Source of the DNA: Oscillospiraceae bacterium
GTDB taxonomy: Bacteria > Bacillota > Clostridia > Oscillospirales > Oscillospiraceae
DNA: 64,000 nt
Direction of reading: 5' to 3'
NCBI GenBank assembly: GCA_017458335.1
Contig: JAFTFT010000027.1
Span: forward strand, 1-64,000
Shown here: piece after piece, positions 5,576 through 61,909 of the stretch
Numbering within the stretch: position 1 is the stretch's first letter
How the letters are laid out: every line of letters starts with the position of its first letter
Made by a program: the position numbers and the translations under genes
Notes under the pieces: model-generated
Databases searched by the model: none
What the model was told of the DNA's origin: nothing
The model's input: only the letters and a program-made list of their open reading frames with translations

Positions 5576-6832
5576 TCAGGACAGGTCCAGCATGCGCCTC
5601 ACGCGCATGAGCGTCAGACGGTTGCGTACCGTCGGGGAGTGTGCGATGAGAACCGGGAGAAGTTCTTCCGGAACCTCCAGATCGGAGAGACAGCGCTTTG
5701 CACCGAGCTTTTCAAATTTTTCAAAGATTTCCGCTTCCGTGGGGATTTCGGCAATGATCTCACGAATGGCGGGCCAGGCTTTCACAATGGCTTCCGGGGT
5801 TACCGCGGCGAGACAGTCGTTGAGGTTCTCTTCCACAGCGGTGGGATAGAGCGTATCTCCGTAGAAATTGCGGAGCCAGCCGTCATCCAGCGGCTGATAC
5901 GGCCGGACACAGCCGGAGATCTCCTCCGTCTCAGCCATCTGATGATAGACACGGGAGGCGATCAGCGTTCCGACGCCGACCTTCTCTCCGTGCAGCGCGG
6001 GGCTGTTCACAGCGCCGAGCCCGGCGGGACGCATCTCAATCAAGTGGGAGATGTGGTGCTCCGCACCGGAGGCCGGACGGGAATTGCCCATCATCTGCAT
6101 GGCCAGCCCGCTCATGAGCAGTCCGTACATCACAGATTCAAAGGCCTTCTGATCCCCGCTGCGTGTATCCAGACAGGAATCCCAGATTCTGCTTACGGCA
6201 TCCTTCATGATGTCATAGATCACGGGGCAGACCGCTTCACCGGTGAGCTCATGGGCGATCCTCCAGTCGGCGAGCGCAATAAACTTGCCGAGCATGTCCC
6301 CGACGCCGCTGGCCGTGAGATACGCCGGAGCCCTGGAGATGACATCGAGGTCGGCGACGACGAGAAGCGGCGCCACCGCGTTCATGGTGTTCTTATAGCC
6401 GTGCCAGGTCATGGCCGCGACGGACGAGCAGTAACCGTCCACACTGGCAGCCGTCGGGAGCGCCACAAAGGGTATCCCTCTCTGCGCGGCACAGTAGCGG
6501 ACCGTGTCGTGGATGGAGCCGCTGCCGCAGGCCAGAAGAACTTCGGTATCCGCAGACAGCTGCCGCAGAACTTCGGCGGTGGAGTGCTCATCGGCATGGA
6601 GCCCCTCAGAGGGAAGGACAATCTCCTGTTCCGCGTGGGGATGGGGGAAGAGCGGATTGTTCCAGGTGTTGCTGCCGTACACGGCACAGCGCTTTCCCTG
6701 AATGCCTTCATCCTTCAGAATTTCATCCAGATTCCGCAGAACACCGGAGTCGATGATGCACGTCCGGGTGGACATCTGATGCTCTTTTCCACAGATACAG
6801 CGTCCGCCATATTGCCTGCTGTCTATCCGCAT
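5576..6832 (-). CDS. sn-glycerol-1-phosphate dehydrogenase family protein (EgsA/AraM-like), copy 2
   Basis: A 418-residue paralogue of the protein at 191-1567 and the first gene of the operon. It shows ACGSGSIHD (nucleotide binding), PTAASVDG, the metal-site segments SRPASGAEHHISH and ALHGEKVGVG, and an N-terminal GGRCICGKEH resembling the CDCGRRH of copy 1. The two copies share the fold motifs but differ widely elsewhere, so they probably handle different substrates or form a heteromer. The ATG at 6832 lies about 17 nt after the predicted transcription start, giving a very short leader with a weak AGAGG site. Confidence 0.85.
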   Translation of the reverse strand: MRIDSRQYGGRCICGKEHQMSTRTCIIDSGVLRNLDEILKDEGIQGKRCAVYGSNTWNNPLFPHPHAEQEIVLPSEGLHADEHSTAEVLRQLSADTEVLLACGSGSIHDTVRYCAAQRGIPFVALPTAASVDGYCSSVAAMTWHGYKNTMNAVAPLLVVADLDVISRAPAYLTASGVGDMLGKFIALADWRIAHELTGEAVCPVIYDIMKDAVSRIWDSCLDTRSGDQKAFESVMYGLLMSGLAMQMMGNSRPASGAEHHISHLIEMRPAGLGAVNSPALHGEKVGVGTLIASRVYHQMAETEEISGCVRPYQPLDDGWLRNFYGDTLYPTAVEENLNDCLAAVTPEAIVKAWPAIREIIAEIPTEAEIFEKFEKLGAKRCLSDLEVPEELLPVLIAHSPTVRNRLTLMRVRRMLDLS

Positions 6833-16192: not shown

Positions 16193-16234
16193 CAGGGCAG
16201 TTCCGGAGCTTGACGATCGGGGCTGCCCTTTTCT
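16193..16234 (+). terminator. xpt terminator
   Basis: GGGCAGTTCCG pairs with CGGGGCTGCCC through an 11-bp stem with two G-T pairs, followed by TTTTC. Confidence 0.85.
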
Positions 16235-16246
16235 TCGCTGCGGGGC

Positions 16247-16275
16247 TTGACAGAGAAACGGGAGCGTATCATAAT
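16247..16275 (+). promoter_or_regulatory. sigma-A promoter of the CCA-adding enzyme gene
   Basis: A perfect TTGACA (16247-16252), a 17-bp spacer and CATAAT (16270-16275). The transcription start near 16282 excludes translation from the start of the long open frame at 16210. Confidence 0.85.
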
Positions 16276-16362
16276 CTGGGACAAAAGAGGCTGTGTCTGA
16301 CGGAAAGAGCATGCCCTGTGCGCAGCGAGGAACACCTGCGAAAGAAAGTGAGGGAGAGCGCA

Positions 16363-17727
16363 TTGGAGAAAGGTGAAGATAAAAATGTCTCCATGGCAAG
16401 AATGATTGCGGAAAAGGTCGCACTGGAAGGCGGCAGAACCTTTTATGTCGGCGGCCTTGTTCGAGATCATATCCTTGGCAGGGACAATAAGGACGTGGAT
16501 ATCGAAATTCATGGGATAACGCCGGAGAAACTGGTCGAAATACTGGAAACGTTCGGCGAGGTTACGAAAACGGGCATGAGCTTTGGCGTGTTCGGCCTGA
16601 AAAAATTTGAAATCGATATCGCCATGCCGAGAAAAGAGAAAGCCGTCGGCCGCGGACATAGAGACTTTGAGATTGATGTAGACCCGTTTATCGGATATGA
16701 AAAAGCGGCGTTGCGGCGAGATTTTACCATGAACGCCATGATGGAAGATGTTCTGTCCGGTGAGATCCTGGACTTCTTCGGCGGCAGGGAAGATATGAAA
16801 AAGCACCTGATCCGCCATGTGAATGATATCACGTATCAGGAAGACGCTTTAAGGGTACTCCGCGCCGCGCAGTTTGCGGCAAGATTTCAATTTGAAATTG
16901 CAGATGAAACGAGAGCTCTGTCACGGACGATGAGCCTGACAGAGCTTGCCTCGGAGAGAATTCTCGGAGAACTGAACAAGGCACTCATGAAAGCAAAAAA
17001 GCCCAGTATCTTCTTTGAGGAAATGAGGAGGATGGGGCATCTGGCCTGGTGGTTTCCGGAGCTTGAAGCCCTGATCGGAGTCCCGCAGAATCCCGTATAT
17101 CATCCGGAAGGCGACGTCTGGACGCATACGATGATGGTGCTTGATGCCGCGGCAGAGCTGCGATCTGCCGCATTGTATCCCGAGGGGTTCATGATGTCGG
17201 CCCTCACACATGACTTCGGGAAAGCAATTTCTACTGTTGTGGAAGAGCATAAAGTGAGCGCCATCGGACATGAGAAAACCGGAATTGCGCTGGCAAGACA
17301 GTTTCTGCGGAGAATCAGCAATGAAAACAAAATGGAGCATTATGTCCTCAATATGGTGGAACTTCACATGAAGCCAAACATGCTGGCAAGCGAAAGAGCC
17401 GGCCGAAAGAGCACTTCGAGGATGCTCGATCAGTCGGTTTGCCCCGGGGATCTTCTGCTTCTGGCAAAAGCGGACCACTTCGGAAAAGGCAACGCAGAAG
17501 ACTACAGCGCAACGGAAACCTTCCTTCAGGAACGTCTTTCTTACTTTGAGGAGCTCATGTCACGGCCGTATGTGCAGGGGAGGGATCTGGTTGAAGCAGG
17601 CGTGAAACCCGGCGCCGATTTCAGTGAAGCCCTGGCATATTCCCATAAAATGAGGCTTGCCGGTGTACAAAAGAAGGAAGCGCTGGCACAGACACTGGCC
17701 TTTATCCGGAAACTGAGAACGACATGA
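16363..17727 (+). CDS. cca: CCA-adding tRNA nucleotidyltransferase / HD-domain phosphohydrolase
   Basis: A class II nucleotidyltransferase that builds or repairs the 3' CCA end of tRNAs. The head shows FYVGGLVRDHILG and DVDIEI (catalytic acids), RRDFTMNAM and EDALRVLRAAQFAARF. The C-terminal half carries an HD domain (THDFGK) that may remove 2',3'-cyclic phosphates. The start is set at TTG 16363 because AGGGAG lies about 7 nt upstream and the product opens MEKGEDKNVSMAR, a normal length ahead of GGRTFYVGG. ATG 16393 is the alternative. The product is 454 residues. A tRNA-end repair enzyme 3 kb from an rtcB locus is worth noting, but each has its own promoter. Confidence 0.88.
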   Translation: MEKGEDKNVSMARMIAEKVALEGGRTFYVGGLVRDHILGRDNKDVDIEIHGITPEKLVEILETFGEVTKTGMSFGVFGLKKFEIDIAMPRKEKAVGRGHRDFEIDVDPFIGYEKAALRRDFTMNAMMEDVLSGEILDFFGGREDMKKHLIRHVNDITYQEDALRVLRAAQFAARFQFEIADETRALSRTMSLTELASERILGELNKALMKAKKPSIFFEEMRRMGHLAWWFPELEALIGVPQNPVYHPEGDVWTHTMMVLDAAAELRSAALYPEGFMMSALTHDFGKAISTVVEEHKVSAIGHEKTGIALARQFLRRISNENKMEHYVLNMVELHMKPNMLASERAGRKSTSRMLDQSVCPGDLLLLAKADHFGKGNAEDYSATETFLQERLSYFEELMSRPYVQGRDLVEAGVKPGADFSEALAYSHKMRLAGVQKKEALAQTLAFIRKLRTT

Positions 17728-18732: not shown

Positions 18733-19956
18733 ATGGCTTACAGCGAACTAATCAAAAACTTCAGCCGTATCCGGGGCTATATGCGGTCTTTCTATGTTTA
18801 CGGGTTCCGTCATCGGAATGAATATGACGAAAAAAGCACGCGGGGCTATGACAATGAACGGCGGAGAATAGAAAGCTGGCTGGGGGACTATATGTCTTTC
18901 GGACAGGATGCTGACGGGAAGAGAACTTTCCTCTCTGTAGACAGCAGAGCCGCTGACCATAACCCCCTTTACCGGGCTTTTAAGGCGAAGAGCTTCACGG
19001 ACCGGGACATCATGCTGCACTTCCATCTTCTGGACATTCTTGAGAACACAGAGGGCCTTTCGATTACAGAGATCACGGAAGAACTGGCAGAACGGCTGAA
19101 TGAGTTCGATTCCGATGAGATTCCCGACGAGTCCACGATTCGGAAAAAACTGCAGGAATATGTGGAGCTCGGGCTCTTGCGGAAAGAAAAGCGGGGAAGA
19201 GAAACGGTCTATTCCGTCAGTGTCGATGACATGAATCTGGAAAGCTGGCAGACCGCGATCGACTACTATGCGGAGACAGCGCCGCTGGGCGTAATAGGGT
19301 CGTTTCTGCAGGGACGCTTCCCGGAAACCGAGCCGGTCTTCCGATTTAAGCATCACTATATTCTGAATGCCCTCGACAGTGAGATCCTGTATGATCTGGT
19401 CACCGCAATCGGTGAAGAACGTGCGGTTACGCTGACAAAAGGGAAATACAAGACAGATGTGCTTCCGCAGAAGCTGTATATCAGCACGCAGACCGGGCGA
19501 CAGTATTTGCTGGCCTGGATGCCCCGGAACAGACAGTTCACCTTCATCCGGACGGATCTGATCGATGAAGTGAAGATCGGAGAACAGATCATAATCCCGG
19601 AGAAGCTGAAGGAAAGGCTGAAAGATTTTCAAAGCCATGTGTGGGGCGCGGCGGCGGGAAACCGTTCTACACCGGAGCATCTGGAGATGACCCTGCTGGT
19701 GAGGGAAAACGAAGGCTTCATTGTGAACCGGCTGGAGCGGGAGAAGAGATGCGGAACCGTTGAGCAGCTGGATCGCACGCACTGGCGATTTTCCGCGGAT
19801 GTTTATGATGCAGTGGAGATGCTGCCCTGGATCCGGACTTTTACCGGGAGAATCGCCAAACTCGAATGCAGCAATCCCCATGTCACAGACCGCTTTTACA
19901 AAGATCTTGAGATGATGGCCGTTATGTACGGAGGGGAAAGCAATGCTGTTTCATGA
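18733..19956 (+). CDS. WYL-domain transcriptional regulator, first of a pair
   Basis: A 407-residue protein. Residues about 1-60 are basic and contain RGYDNERRRIESWLG. A winged-helix domain spans about 90-160 (LSITEITEELAERLN, DESTIRKKLQEYVELGLL). A WYL domain spans about 210-320 (QYLLAWMPRNRQFTFIRTDLIDEVKIG), followed by the WYL C-terminal extension. WYL domains are ligand-sensing folds proposed to bind nucleic acid or nucleotides and often govern stress and defence genes. The gene overlaps the second WYL gene by 14 nt, so the two proteins are probably made together. The operon continues into rtcB and a tRNA array, so the natural guess is a sensor of damaged RNA ends. Confidence 0.85.
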   Translation: MAYSELIKNFSRIRGYMRSFYVYGFRHRNEYDEKSTRGYDNERRRIESWLGDYMSFGQDADGKRTFLSVDSRAADHNPLYRAFKAKSFTDRDIMLHFHLLDILENTEGLSITEITEELAERLNEFDSDEIPDESTIRKKLQEYVELGLLRKEKRGRETVYSVSVDDMNLESWQTAIDYYAETAPLGVIGSFLQGRFPETEPVFRFKHHYILNALDSEILYDLVTAIGEERAVTLTKGKYKTDVLPQKLYISTQTGRQYLLAWMPRNRQFTFIRTDLIDEVKIGEQIIIPEKLKERLKDFQSHVWGAAAGNRSTPEHLEMTLLVRENEGFIVNRLEREKRCGTVEQLDRTHWRFSADVYDAVEMLPWIRTFTGRIAKLECSNPHVTDRFYKDLEMMAVMYGGESNAVS

Positions 19957-20863
19957 AATTTACGGCAGCTATTATCAGACGGTTTCCCTGATCCTGCAGG
20001 AAGCGGTCAGAGGAACCCTGACGAAGAAAAGCCTGTCCGGACTGATAAAAAAGCATGCATTTGGGGAGAGTTCTCTGAATATCCCGAGCGGCCTGACCGG
20101 AGAGCAATGGCGCCTGCTCCATCAGGATCTCACTACACCCTTGACGGATGAACCGAAGATGCCCTTGACAATACTGGAGAAGCGATGGCTGAAGGCTCTG
20201 CTTCTGGATCCCCGGGTCCGGCTTTTTGCACCGGATTCGGCAGGCTTTGATGAGATTGCCCCGCTGTTCACACCGGATATGTTTGTTTATTACGATCGAT
20301 ATACAGATGGGGACGATTATCAGGACGAGACGTATGCCCGAAACTTCCGAAATATCGTCACGGCGATCAGAGAGAAGAAGAATCTTTTGCTCGAATATGA
20401 ATCTCGAGACGGATCCAGGAATAAGATGACGGTGACTCCTCAATATCTGGAGTATTCAGAGAAAGACGACCGTTTCCGGCTGTTTGCAAGAGGAAAATAC
20501 CGGCATTGGATTCTCAATCTGTCGCGGATCAAAGAATGCAGCCTGGAGGCGGCAGAAAAACGGATGCCCGGGCGGGCACCTGCGGAGCAGGCACTCCGTT
20601 TTGAACTGACAGATCACAGAAATGCCATGGAACGGGTCCTGCTTCATTTTTCTCATCTCCGGAAGGAGACCAAACGTCTTGATGAGAAACATTATCAGGT
20701 AACACTGTATTACGATCGGCAGGATGAGACCGAGATGGTGATTCGCCTGCTTTCCTTCGGCCCCGTGATCCGGGTCACAGAACCCGAGAGAATCGTACAG
20801 CAGCTCCGGGAGAGAATTGAAAGACAGGGGAAGCTCGCAGATGCTCCCGGAAGCGGAGAATAA
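19943..20863 (+). CDS. WYL-domain protein, second of a pair
   Basis: A 306-residue partner of the preceding protein. It lacks an obvious N-terminal winged helix of normal length and opens MLFHEIYGSYYQTVSLI. The WYL core lies at about 140-205 (REKKNLLLEYESRDGS, TPQYLEYSEKDDRFRLFA, NLSRIKECSLE), followed by a C-terminal extension. GGAGGGG ahead of its ATG lies within the end of the first gene, indicating coupled translation. A pair of unequal WYL proteins suggests a hetero-oligomeric sensor, one half binding DNA and one reading the signal. It lies 35 nt ahead of rtcB. Confidence 0.82.
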   Translation: MLFHEIYGSYYQTVSLILQEAVRGTLTKKSLSGLIKKHAFGESSLNIPSGLTGEQWRLLHQDLTTPLTDEPKMPLTILEKRWLKALLLDPRVRLFAPDSAGFDEIAPLFTPDMFVYYDRYTDGDDYQDETYARNFRNIVTAIREKKNLLLEYESRDGSRNKMTVTPQYLEYSEKDDRFRLFARGKYRHWILNLSRIKECSLEAAEKRMPGRAPAEQALRFELTDHRNAMERVLLHFSHLRKETKRLDEKHYQVTLYYDRQDETEMVIRLLSFGPVIRVTEPERIVQQLRERIERQGKLADAPGSGE

Positions 20864-20898: not shown

Positions 20899-22107
20899 AT
20901 GATTGAAATACAGGGAAAACATAACAGCGCGGTCTGCTATTGTGATGAGCTTGAAGAGACCGCGCAGCAGCAGATCCAAGAGCTCTGTGACCAGTCAGTT
21001 TTTGCGGAATCCAGGATCCGGATCATGCCGGATGTGCATGCGGGCGCAGGCTGCACGATCGGAACGACGATGACCATCAAAGAAAAAGCGGCACCCAGCC
21101 TTGTCGGCGTCGATATCGGCTGCGGTATGGAGACGGTGATGCTGCGGGAGAAAGAAATCGACTTCGCAAAACTGGATCGGGTAATCCGCACTTCGGTTCC
21201 GGCAGGGGAGAATATCAGGAAAACACCGCATCCGTTGACCGGACAGCTTGCGCTTGAAACGCTCTGGTGTGCCGCTGCGGTAAACAAAGAGAGAGCGATG
21301 CTCAGCCTCGGGAGCCTTGGCGGAGGCAACCATTTTATTGAAGTGGACCGTGATGACGACGGTTTCCTCTATCTGGTGATTCATTCCGGCAGCCGCTACC
21401 TTGGGGTTCAGACCGCAGGGTATTATAAAAAGCTCGGATGGCAAAGCATGAATACCGTCAGCCGGGAAGAAAGAGACCGGCTGATTCAACGTTACAAGGC
21501 AGAGGGACGGACACAGGAGATTGAACAGGGGCTCCGGGAATTGAACGAACGGTTTGAATCGGCAGCGGAAGTACCGGAAACGCTTGCCTATGTAGAAGGA
21601 GACAATCTGGAGCACTATCTTCACGATATGAAAATCGTCCAGCAGTTTGCCGCCTTGAACCGACAGGCAATGGCACAGGCGATTCTCGAAGGAATGGGCT
21701 GGACGGAAACAGACAGTTTTACCACCATACACAACTATATCGATACCGAGAACATGATTCTTCGAAAGGGTTCGGTTTCCGCGCAGAAGGGCGAGCGACT
21801 GCTGATTCCGATCAACATGCGCGACGGCGCTCTGATCTGCATCGGGAAAGGGAATCCTGAGTGGAATTATTCCGCACCGCACGGTGCCGGGCGCGTCCTC
21901 AGCCGAAAAGCAGCCCAGGAGAGACTGAATGTTGAACAGTTCCGAAAAGAGATGGAGGGCATCTACAGCACCTGCGTTGCCGAAAGCACCCTGGACGAAT
22001 CCCCCATGGCCTATAAAGGCATGGATGCGATCCTGTCACAGATCGGGCCAACCGCGGAAATTGTGAAGCGAATCAAGCCAATATACAACTTCAAGGCAGG
22101 AACATAA
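20899..22107 (+). CDS. rtcB: RNA-splicing ligase RtcB
   Basis: A 402-residue GTP/manganese-dependent ligase that joins 2',3'-cyclic-phosphate (or 3'-phosphate) RNA ends to 5'-OH ends, the chemistry needed for tRNA splicing and for healing tRNAs cut by nucleases. Metal and active-site motifs are present: MPDVHAGAGCTIG, GVDIGCGME (catalytic cysteine), GSLGGGNHFIE, HSGSR, and the guanylylated histidine in APHGAGRVLSR. Length matches E. coli RtcB. No archease or PrfH gene is nearby. It is the third gene of WYL-WYL-rtcB, with GAAGGAG 8 nt before the ATG, and the tRNA array starts about 110-140 nt behind its stop. Confidence 0.93.
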   Translation: MIEIQGKHNSAVCYCDELEETAQQQIQELCDQSVFAESRIRIMPDVHAGAGCTIGTTMTIKEKAAPSLVGVDIGCGMETVMLREKEIDFAKLDRVIRTSVPAGENIRKTPHPLTGQLALETLWCAAAVNKERAMLSLGSLGGGNHFIEVDRDDDGFLYLVIHSGSRYLGVQTAGYYKKLGWQSMNTVSREERDRLIQRYKAEGRTQEIEQGLRELNERFESAAEVPETLAYVEGDNLEHYLHDMKIVQQFAALNRQAMAQAILEGMGWTETDSFTTIHNYIDTENMILRKGSVSAQKGERLLIPINMRDGALICIGKGNPEWNYSAPHGAGRVLSRKAAQERLNVEQFRKEMEGIYSTCVAESTLDESPMAYKGMDAILSQIGPTAEIVKRIKPIYNFKAGT

Positions 22108-22154: not shown

Positions 22155-22207
22155 AGTTCGTAACTTTTTTCCCGTGAATTCTATGGGCGGCTGTGGTACA
22201 TTACAAT
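22155..22207 (+). promoter_or_regulatory. short hairpin/T-run and possible -10 box between rtcB and tRNA array
   Basis: AGTT-CGT-AACT followed by six T (about 22155-22170) is a weak terminator-like element behind rtcB. TACAAT at 22202-22207, preceded by TGTGG, could be a -10 box for separate transcription of the tRNA array. No good -35 is seen, so the array may be expressed by read-through from rtcB. Confidence 0.35.
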
Positions 22208-22248
22208 CACCGAAAGGAAAAAAGCACGGACAGCAAAGAACTGGTAAC

Positions 22249-22285
22249 GGCGGAGATACAGGTTCAATTCCTGCAGAGGTCACCA
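22249..22285 (+). tRNA. 3' half of a permuted tRNA (anticodon 3' strand to CCA)
   Basis: Reads GGCGG (anticodon stem 3' strand), AGAT (variable), ACAGG-TTCAATT-CCTGC (T arm, one A-C mismatch at its base), AGAGGTC (acceptor 3' strand), discriminator A, encoded CCA at 22283-22285. No upstream segment can pair with AGAGGTC. The matching strand GGCCTCT is downstream at 22372-22378 (one G-T pair). A complete tRNA-Asp lies between the two halves, with linkers of 6 and 3 nt. Confidence 0.65.
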
Positions 22286-22291
22286 ACATAC

Positions 22292-22368
22292 AGCTCCGTG
22301 GTGCAGATGGTTAACACGCCTGCCTGTCACGCAGGAGATCGCGGGTTCAAGTCCCGTCGGAGTTGCCA
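22292..22368 (+). tRNA. tRNA-Asp(GTC), divergent acceptor stem
   Basis: A full cloverleaf: acceptor AGCTCCG/CGGAGTT (A1-T72, G2-T71), D arm GTG..CAC with GG, anticodon arm CCTGC-CTGTCAC-GCAGG giving GTC, T arm GCGGG-TTCAAGT-CCCGT, discriminator G, encoded CCA. The body is a classical tRNA-Asp, but the A1-T72 end is unusual for Asp, which normally has G1-C72. It is embedded between the two halves of the permuted tRNA. Confidence 0.88.
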
Positions 22369-22371
22369 TAC

Positions 22372-22400
22372 GGCCTCTTAGTTCAACGGTAGAATACCGC
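22372..22400 (+). tRNA. 5' half of a permuted tRNA (acceptor 5' strand to anticodon 5' strand)
   Basis: Reads GGCCTCT (acceptor), TA (U8, A9), GTTC-AACGGTA-GAAT (D arm with A14 and G18G19), A26, CCGC (anticodon stem). It then departs into ATGAAAAAA and the flanking helix instead of an anticodon loop and 3' half. Joining C22400 to C22241 would make a perfect 5-bp anticodon stem (CCGCC/GGCGG) and a 7-nt loop TGGTAAC. Position 33 would then be G rather than U and the triplet would be GTA. If the join is elsewhere, the string CTGGTAA would read GGT. The decoding identity cannot be settled. Confidence 0.6.
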
Positions 22401-22423
22401 ATGAAAAAACGTGCTTTGTTTAT

Positions 22424-22498
22424 GGCTTTGTACGTCAATCGGCAGACGGGCGGACTGTCGCTCCGCAGATGCGGGTTCAAATCCCGTCAAAGTCGCCA
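22424..22498 (+). tRNA. tRNA-Asp(GTC)-like, second divergent copy
   Basis: Acceptor GGCTTTG/CAAAGTC (one G-T), D arm CGTC-AATCGGCA-GACG, anticodon arm GCGGA-CTGTCGC-TCCGC giving GTC with G37, variable AGAT, T arm GCGGG-TTCAAAT-CCCGT, discriminator G, encoded CCA. It lacks the usual G10 of tRNA-Asp and differs strongly from the copy at 22292. It starts 6 nt after the flanking helix of the permuted tRNA. Confidence 0.8.
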
Positions 22499-22501
22499 AA
22501 T

Positions 22502-22577
22502 GCTTCCTTCGTCTAAGCGGCAAGGATGTCTGTCTTCCAAACAGAAGGTGCGAGTTCAAGTCTCGCAGGAAGCTCCA
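22502..22577 (+). tRNA. tRNA-Gly(TCC)
   Basis: Acceptor GCTTCCT/AGGAAGC fully paired, D arm GTCT..GGAT, anticodon arm TCTGT-CTTCCAA-ACAGA giving TCC, variable AGGT, T arm GCGAG-TTCAAGT-CTCGC, discriminator T as usual for bacterial Gly, encoded CCA. It lies 3 nt behind the second Asp-like tRNA. The D arm TTCGTCTAAG.GGC resembles tRNA-Glu. Confidence 0.88.
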
Positions 22578-61376: not shown

Positions 61377-61604
61377 AAAAAACGCCCTCCGGATTTCTCC
61401 GGAGGGCGCCCGCTTATGCCGTGCCGGCCCATAGGTAACCTGCACAAAAGAGCAGGTGGGTTGCCTAAGTTCTGTTTCACTGCTTCCAACTTCCGGGACA
61501 AGTCTCCGGGAGGCCTGCAATCCGCAGATTCAAATCAGCATCCCTTATAAGAGATGTGGGTTTCATGGGCCGTGAAGTCTGAAAAGACTACACGGACACA
61601 GCAG
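61377..61604 (-). ncRNA. ssrS: 6S-like structured RNA with terminator
   Basis: On the minus strand CTGCTGTGTCCGTG (from 61604) pairs with CACGGCATAAGCGGG near 61410. Inside, GGCCCAT pairs with ATGGGCC and AGGCAACCCACCTGC with GCAGGTTACCT, separated by an open central region, giving a long rod with a bubble as in 6S RNA. GCCCTCCGG-AGAAAT-CCGGAGGGC and a T-run (61377-61409) terminate it. The assignment to 6S is from structure and remembered Firmicute sequence, not a search. Confidence 0.55.
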
Positions 61605-61609
61605 AAAAA

Positions 61610-61909
61610 TCATTCATCGGAAGGGCCTTCCTCGTCCTCATCATCATAGAGGAGCGCCATGAAGCGCTCATAGACATCCTGAAGCTCGGCGTCATCGTCG
61701 ATGGACTCAAAGACCTCATCGCCGTTTTCATCTTCCACCACGCGCAGGAGAATGAAGCCGTAATCAGGGTCGTCTTCCTTCATGTCGGCGGGGAGGAAGG
61801 ACATATAGGTCTGGCCGTTATAGTCCATGGACTCAATCACTTCCAGCTCGAACTCCTGGCCGTCGTCGTCTACGATGGTGATAAAATCGCTGCCGAATTC
61901 GTCGCTCAT
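61610..61909 (-). CDS. DUF1292 family protein
   Basis: 99 very acidic residues with the DUF1292 pattern (ITIVDDDGQEFELEVIESMDYNGQTYM, DYGFILLRVVEDENGDE, FESIDDDAELQDVYERF). Function is unknown; the family is common in Firmicutes. The 6S-like RNA begins about 5 nt behind its stop, so either that RNA has a promoter inside this gene or it is processed from the same transcript. Confidence 0.88.
   Translation of the reverse strand: MSDEFGSDFITIVDDDGQEFELEVIESMDYNGQTYMSFLPADMKEDDPDYGFILLRVVEDENGDEVFESIDDDAELQDVYERFMALLYDDEDEEGPSDE

Follow-up and report, generated by a model that had tools for sequence, protein, structure and literature searches.

A permuted tRNA enclosing a tRNA-Asp gene: most likely the tRNA-mimicking head of a Y-like small RNA in an Oscillospiraceae RNA-repair locus

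Several described systems contain tRNA-like RNAs that are rearranged or divided. The bacterial Y RNA YrlA (RF02553) is described from the Salmonella rsr-yrlBA-rtcBA operon, where it is accompanied by an RNA ligase and a Ro-type protein (PMC7790460, PMC8394870). A role as a competitive inhibitor has been floated for its tRNA-like domain (PMC7790460). In the Rfam consensus of YrlA, a T arm is followed by a closed acceptor and then by a D arm. In the permuted tRNA genes of algae and an archaeon, the break is reported to be ligated through BHB motifs, which consist of two 3-nt bulges, and the intervening sequences measure 1-74 bp (PMC3978253). The two-piece tmRNA of bacteria is described as working in two pieces, with a break that is not religated (PMC3978253). 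In Listeria phage CKA15, a DUF2828-type protein has been called Ro-like by HHPred; three highly transcribed putative ncRNAs lie within 2 kb upstream of its gene and have been proposed to be Y RNAs (PMC12282133).

Here we describe a scrambled tRNA in a 64,000-nt stretch of an Oscillospiraceae genome, referred to as the window. Comparison with its relatives makes it most likely that this is the tRNA-mimicking head of a Y-like small RNA belonging to an RNA-repair gene system; it probably does not encode a tRNA used in translation.

Layout of the element

The coordinates and letters of the scrambled tRNA hold up on re-checking of the window sequence. Downstream of rtcB, an 8-bp stem encloses, in this order, the 3' half of a tRNA with its CCA, an entire tRNA-Asp and a 5' half that pairs with the 3' half; these features and the array genes named below are on the plus strand. 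The promoter element GTTCGTAACTTTTTTCCCGTGAA (22156-22178), which is common to the arrays of Y-like units upstream of DUF2828 genes, is followed by a -10-like TACATT (22197-22202) and a leader with CCGAAAGG. The 5' arm of the stem, AAAGCACG (22221-22228), pairs in eight of eight positions with 22410-22417 of the 3' arm, CGTGCTTT, which together with the following G spans 22410-22418. Inside the stem, the family hallmark ACAGCAA (22230-22236) forms an internal loop with the A-rich strand ATGAAAAAA (22401-22409), and ATGAAAAAA is found in a bacterial relative (L170) too. An anticodon-type stem is formed by the 3' strand GCGG (22250-22253) and the 5' strand CCGC (22397-22400), with four of four pairs. 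The T arm ACAGG-TTCAATT-CCTGC (22258-22274) has four of five pairs and an A-C mismatch at its base. It is followed at 22275-22285 by the acceptor 3' strand AGAGGTC, an A at N73 and the encoded CCA (22283-22285). The acceptor strand (22275-22281) makes seven of seven pairs, one of them G-U, with the 5' strand GGCCTCT (22372-22378). U8-A9 and the D arm GTTC-AACGGTA-GAAT complete the 5' half at 22379-22395, with U8 at 22379 and the D arm at 22381-22395 (four of four pairs, one G-U).

The acceptor loop holds the complete tRNA-Asp(GTC) with its own CCA (22292-22368; ARAGORN, and RF00005 at 60.2 bits), flanked by spacers at 22286-22291 and 22369-22371. The same array continues with a second tRNA-Asp(GTC) (22424-22498) and a tRNA-Gly(TCC) (22502-22577), both found by ARAGORN, and the Asp-Gly order recurs in a locus of the same genus (L152). 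The first-pass annotation of this stretch had described tRNA parts in permuted order with pairing halves, complementary outer flanks and a complete tRNA-Asp between the halves; the pairs and coordinates above bear out all three. ARAGORN and Rfam miss the permuted tRNA and report the nested tRNA-Asp(GTC). For tmRNA in the window, ARAGORN finds none and Rfam gives only an 11-nt chance match of 6.7 bits. Elsewhere in the window, Rfam matches a group II intron at 64-139 (61 bits) and 6S RNA at 61403-61610 on the minus strand.

The case for the proposed structure is one of comparison, not of folding energy. The minimum-energy fold of 22214-22423 lacks the nested structure and is no better than those of shuffled sequences (z -1.03). 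The nested form as drawn has -36.9 versus -60.7 for the minimum, a value that is indicative only, as the D and anticodon arms of the tRNA-Asp are misplaced in the drawing. When folded together as two pieces, the halves associate through the outer and acceptor helices at -36.7, against a mean of -25.2 (sd 2.8, lowest -34.9) with a shuffled partner; the T arm, the D arm and the anticodon-type stem are absent from this co-fold.

The unit family and its gene company

Y-like units were sought in the best 80 of 558 confirmed named bacterial loci and the best 80 of 403 confirmed viral contigs with DUF2828 relatives. A unit was defined by AARnnnnnnACAGCAA with at most one motif mismatch, a paired arm of at least 6/7 and TTG. 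With this motif, learnt from relatives that partly recur in the tested set, 461 units were found on the DUF2828 strand of the 160 loci versus 45 in reversed sequence. Within 1600 nt upstream of DUF2828 there are 268 units, distributed over 76 of the 80 bacterial loci, and 37 more lie elsewhere on that strand. As an independent check, all six other carriers of DUF2828 among 398 genomes of the phylum, picked by the protein alone, have a unit upstream of the gene (in one, G377, with one motif mismatch). The gene itself is sporadic, being present in 9 of 99 relatives and 7 of 398 phylum genomes with the source genome counted in both. The A-rich strand is also a family feature: 77 of the 268 units have AAAA no more than 3 nt away from the 3' arm, versus 9.8 in shuffles. 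At gathering thresholds, Rfam reports tRNAs in 21 further sources, plus one SAM riboswitch and one DUF3800-XI match away from the units (L104). An exact AAAGCACGGACAGCAA match in G168 was rejected as a unit: it lies inside an opposite-strand open reading frame, and no unit with a paired 3' arm was detected there.

In 61 of the 76 loci, the 250 nt preceding the first detected unit contain the promoter motif CGCAACTTTTTT, with at most one mismatch and followed by a -10-like hexamer; in 43 of the 61 the motif lies 50-65 nt from the first unit. In total, there are 87 matches in 2.5 Mb over both strands. The window has a single such element, with one mismatch, at 22159 and 62 nt before the stem. 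Two further copies are seen in L152 (5080-6770); in the same locus, a predicted tRNA without a normal anticodon (6372-6443) lies in a stretch that gives the impression of being intron-like.

The window element shares the AARnnnn stem, the paired arm ending in TTG and the nnACAGCAA (22228-22236) that faces the A-rich strand. It sits downstream of RtcB and not directly upstream of DUF2828. The DUF2828 gene of the source genome lies with two further units on another contig (C38). There, a second copy of the promoter region, with its CGCAACTTTTTT-type element, is followed by two hairpins that share the stem and the ACAGCAA motif, and these precede the DUF2828/DUF7788 gene. Neither hairpin is a clear tRNA mimic; one has TTATC-CTTTTCA-GATAA, a loop without a purine at position 37.

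Besides the window, 16 permuted heads have been identified: in L137, L152 (three), L154, L170, L176 (two) and L180 (two), in the viral loci L239 and L259, in Mycobacterium phage LeBron, and in the Bacillus phages FADO and vB_BcoS-136 (two). Each has a T arm, a closed acceptor and a D arm, in this order, inside the stem. Seven came from a signature scan and nine were recognised by eye (the third of L152, both of L176, both of L180, LeBron, FADO and both of vB_BcoS-136). In LeBron, the units are found downstream of the Ro-like gene, and the unit finder did not detect them. In 14 of the 16, a short loop lacking CCA closes the acceptor; in two the loop is N-CCA-spacer, and in the window it is CCA-spacer-tRNA-Asp-spacer. 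L152 has two permuted units between ordinary tRNA genes with the loops ACCAAAC and GCCATGC, which we read as N73-CCA-spacer.

The scan signature consisted of a T arm, an acceptor of at least 6/7, U8 and a D arm, all enclosed by a paired stem that carries an ACAGCA-like motif (at most two mismatches). In the 160 DUF2828 loci and the window it gave 14 forward matches, at least six of which are spurious, tandem tRNAs or unclear (L105, L135, L201, L203, L211, L250), no reverse match and none in each of two base-order controls. A second scan of all loci, some in native orientation, gave 14 forward, four reverse, and 0 and 0 control matches. Long-loop matches in L105/L039/L095, L118 and L180 arise artificially from units that adjoin each other, those in L135 and L250 are apparently spurious, and L201/L203 hold ordinary tRNAs in tandem; L202, L211 and L260 were left out as unclear. 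The less biased test of the acceptor is a count in which it was not a criterion: of the 21 units in which 30 nt or more follow a T arm, nine have an acceptor hairpin of at least 6/7, versus 1.2 (maximum 5) in shuffles, and two of the nine (L148 and L260) were left out as not clear permuted heads. Because MAFFT alignment of the permuted heads puts the acceptors in the wrong place, the strands were set by hand for the pairing count. On these, a head's own acceptor strands pair in 6.6 of 7 positions versus 3.6 of 7 for cross-matched strands (0 of 20000 permutations), a test partly selected on pairing, as eight of its ten members had been found by acceptor pairing or by the first-pass annotation. 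The viral unit L259:4065-4192 is a permuted tRNA that keeps its anticodon arm, GCAGT-CTGATAA-ACTGT, with the anticodon GAT; the stem thus seems to be grafted at different corners of the tRNA.

Other units carry other inserts. An anticodon-type stem-loop (5-bp stem, 7-nt loop, U33, R37, T loops excluded) is present in 85 of the 268 inserts versus 6.7 (maximum 13) in dinucleotide shuffles, stem pairing being a criterion of the count. In 48 of the 85, the loop is identical to an anticodon loop of predicted tRNAs from the loci, compared with 0.5 of 6.6 in shuffles. The same loop may occur on different stems: CTTTTAA (Lys UUU) has 11 occurrences on six stems, CTTCTAA five on four, and CTGAAAA five on five. 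The Lys-UUU tRNA is reported to be cut by the anticodon nucleases PrrC and AriB (PMC12409363). Among the real tRNAs of these loci, too, no loop is as common as CTTTTAA (30 of 655), and its excess therefore need not reflect nuclease targets. Some units are tRNA bodies without an acceptor end, such as CAU types matched by Rfam at model positions 4 to 67. By the detectors used, 152 of the 268 units have no T arm, D arm or anticodon stem-loop, which weakens a reading of the whole family purely as tRNA mimics.

The gene company of the window element consists of two WYL-type regulators and an RtcB RNA ligase (20899-22107, PF01139), all on the plus strand. The first regulator (18733-19956) matches the PADLOC WYL profile and has no Pfam match; the second (19943-20863) matches PF13280 and PADLOC WYL. 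About 1 kb upstream of these genes lies what we take to be a CCA-adding/poly(A)-polymerase-like gene (16210-17727). In tblastn searches of the 80 bacterial DUF2828 loci, homologues of one or both WYL proteins were found in 59, of RtcB in 41 and of either in 65; many of these loci end near the DUF2828 gene. In the 80 viral contigs, RtcB was found once and WYL in none. The order WYL-WYL-units-DUF2828-RtcB is seen in four loci (L089, L092, L097, L099), while in others the WYL genes are sometimes inverted or RtcB precedes DUF2828. Two relatives (G012 and G032) have tRNA arrays after rtcB, and in G032 no DUF2828 was found. Arrays of 11-20 predicted tRNA genes are present in L033, L034, L285 and L288 (genomes G032, G012, G225 and G251, respectively); the arrays of relatives are possibly replacement tRNA sets.

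A DUF2828 homologue occurs in 676 of 50,697 phage records, and among the matches listed, several of 20 carry the annotation "Ro-like RNA binding protein". The vWA part of DUF2828 gives a weak profile match to three TROVE proteins (probability 53, E 1.4e-4). Together with the HHPred result published for CKA15, the annotation and this one weak match suggest that DUF2828 is Ro-like. A PDB sequence search with the DUF2828 profile gave only four matches (E 0.1-0.8), and the DUF2828 protein of the source genome is unmatched by NCBIfam and PADLOC. TROVE was not found in the source genome, which is 84% complete.

Readings of the locus

We consider it likely, from comparison, that the product of 22221-22418 is a Y-RNA-like RNA belonging to a WYL-RtcB-DUF2828 (Ro-like) RNA-repair regulon, with a tRNA-mimic head in YrlA order and a tRNA-Asp in its acceptor loop. 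The sequence and its pairing, the family, the promoter element and the gene company are established by comparison. The outer stem and the nnACAGCAA/A-rich internal loop would be the common, presumably protein-binding, part. As in YrlA, the head would comprise, in this order, one anticodon strand, the T arm, the 3' and then the 5' strand of the acceptor, the D arm and the other anticodon strand, and the Y stem would take the place of the anticodon loop. For the steps that follow, we infer transcription of 22221-22418 as one RNA; as happens between tRNAs in tandem, RNase P and 3' maturation would cut it, here at the CCA and at G22372. Given an acceptor loop made of CCA-spacer-tRNA-Asp-spacer, ordinary tRNA-end processing would free the tRNA-Asp and leave a two-piece Y RNA that ends in CCA like a tRNA, its pieces kept together by pairing in the outer, anticodon-type and acceptor helices. 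The DUF2828 protein may bind this Y RNA, which could, as a tRNA mimic, serve as a tether or decoy in a response to tRNA damage. Points against the Y-RNA reading are the score against the YrlA model, the location of DUF2828 on another contig, the lack of a TROVE match in the 84% complete genome, the fold energies, the mismatch in the T stem, the single occurrence of the nesting and the many units without a tRNA sign.

The nested arrangement has been seen only in the window, and the whole stretch is matched in one of 102 genomes of the genus, the source itself. The spacer before the tRNA-Asp (CCA-ACATAC-AGC) equals the Gln-Asp spacer on contig C154 of G225, and the spacer after it (CCA-TAC-GGCC) equals the Asp-Glu(CTC) spacer of G012 and G032. 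On another contig of G225 (C46), the junction of tRNA-Asp end, 5' half and stem arm is present at 90% identity; the tRNA-Asp is degenerate there and no 3' half is seen upstream of the 5' half. With a single match in the genus and this incomplete counterpart, the nesting is an uncommon arrangement, perhaps of recent origin or in decay. The spacers, the truncated copy in G225 and the T-stem mismatch would fit a decay product, in which remnants of an old Gln-Asp-Glu array were rearranged with a Y unit and are now non-functional. On the other hand, the Y stem, the acceptor, the promoter element and the tRNA-Asp are all intact. Compared with the Glu(CTC) acceptor of G012 and G032 (GGCCCCT/AGGGGTC), the window also has a paired C-G to T-A change that involves both separated halves, a change that common ancestry of the halves could also give. 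Overall, decay appears improbable to us, though it fares better than the other alternatives.

Less probable still is a true permuted tRNA gene, in which, as proposed in the first-pass annotation, the flanks are excised and the ends joined, giving a new anticodon loop; the adjacent RtcB could conceivably do the joining. The pairing halves, the encoded CCA and the neighbouring RtcB are what such a gene would have. Joining C22400 to C22241 would give a 5-bp stem and a 7-nt loop, but only four of these pairs exist as encoded; the fifth arises solely through that joint, and the loop then has G33. BHB geometry is lacking at the junction, where 21 + 9 unpaired nt lie between the 4-bp anticodon-type helix and the 8-bp stem, and the acceptors of relatives are mostly closed by a short loop. 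The flank helix, which had been taken to hold a precursor together, is the stem of the whole family. In other members it encloses single anticodon stem-loops, tRNA bodies in the normal order or inserts that show no tRNA sign, so it is no splicing aid of the window tRNA alone. The idea that flanks and halves belong to one RNA is kept in the Y-RNA reading; excision and joining find no support. A long leader, whose Y stem protects a tRNA operon transcript and whose permuted tRNA is incidental, would fit the two further tRNA genes downstream on the same strand, but permuted heads are present too in phages and in further bacterial loci whose tRNA content differs, which makes it very hard to sustain.

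Beyond the Y-RNA reading of the window element, the regulon as a whole might, more speculatively, be a library of tRNA decoys against anticodon nucleases. Y scaffolds would display anticodon stem-loops and permuted or truncated tRNA bodies, DUF2828 would hold the scaffolds, RtcB would reseal cut RNAs, WYL regulators would switch the system on and the linked tRNA arrays would supply replacements. The window element would then combine the two arms, as a split, CCA-ended Y RNA carrying a replacement tRNA-Asp. We put this forward tentatively and rate it as doubtful, because more than half of the units have no tRNA sign.

The Y-RNA reading ties the puzzle of a permuted tRNA in a bacterium to a conserved set of tRNA-mimicking RNAs. 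In Clostridia and other bacteria these would be linked both to Ro-like proteins and to an RNA ligase; in phages, which come from many hosts, they would be linked to Ro-like proteins. The exact copies of anticodon loops in Y-type hairpins, most often of Lys-UUU, make the purpose of tRNA mimicry by bacterial Y RNAs directly testable. If the reading is true, a tRNA gene inside the acceptor loop of another RNA would be a new form of gene nesting and would give a new two-piece RNA.

Comparison with known systems

Like the permuted tRNA genes of algae and an archaeon, the window element has the 3' half first and an acceptor rebuilt across an intervening sequence. Unlike them, its intervening sequence measures 86 nt (22286-22371) and contains a complete tRNA, and it has no anticodon loop. 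The proposed two-piece state resembles that of two-piece tmRNA, with the difference that the segment excised from the window RNA would be a tRNA.

The Ro-like phage systems are similar in that a DUF2828-type gene adjoins ACAGCAA-type hairpins (LeBron and Listeria phage P100) and tRNAs (P100). In P100, three such hairpins with other stem sequences lie just upstream of the DUF2828 gene gp165 (38.6% identity); they were missed by the strict finder, and the looser search gives three there and two in a reversed control. The ncRNAs of the related phage CKA15 may correspond to these hairpins. In vB_BcoS-136 (L311) and P100 (L314), the Ro-like DUF2828 gene is preceded by tRNA arrays, and Y-type hairpins lie among the tRNAs or after them; 15 tRNAs are annotated in the stretch and 17 are found by ARAGORN. 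The available text of the phage Ro-like literature differs in naming no motif, anticodon mimics or permuted heads (PMC12282133, PMC13148394). Among the literature matches listed, no description of these DUF2828-linked arrays was found, and the mentions of DUF2828, judged by title, concern plants only.

The window scores 17.1 against a YrlA threshold of 69 bits in Rfam, below the gathering cut-off, and the best alignment uses the tRNA-Asp. It differs from YrlA in its stem and internal loop, and in having a full 7-bp acceptor, a CCA and a whole tRNA in the acceptor loop. Its system has DUF2828 in place of TROVE and WYL regulators in place of RtcR, and its relatives have arrays of many units. The element is not filed as RF02553. 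What it shares with YrlA is the company of an RNA ligase and a Ro-type protein, here an adjoining RtcB and a DUF2828 protein encoded elsewhere in the genome, and the order of T arm, acceptor and D arm on a long stem. As this permuted order is that of the YrlA consensus, a permuted tRNA would be what a tRNA-mimicking Y RNA looks like.
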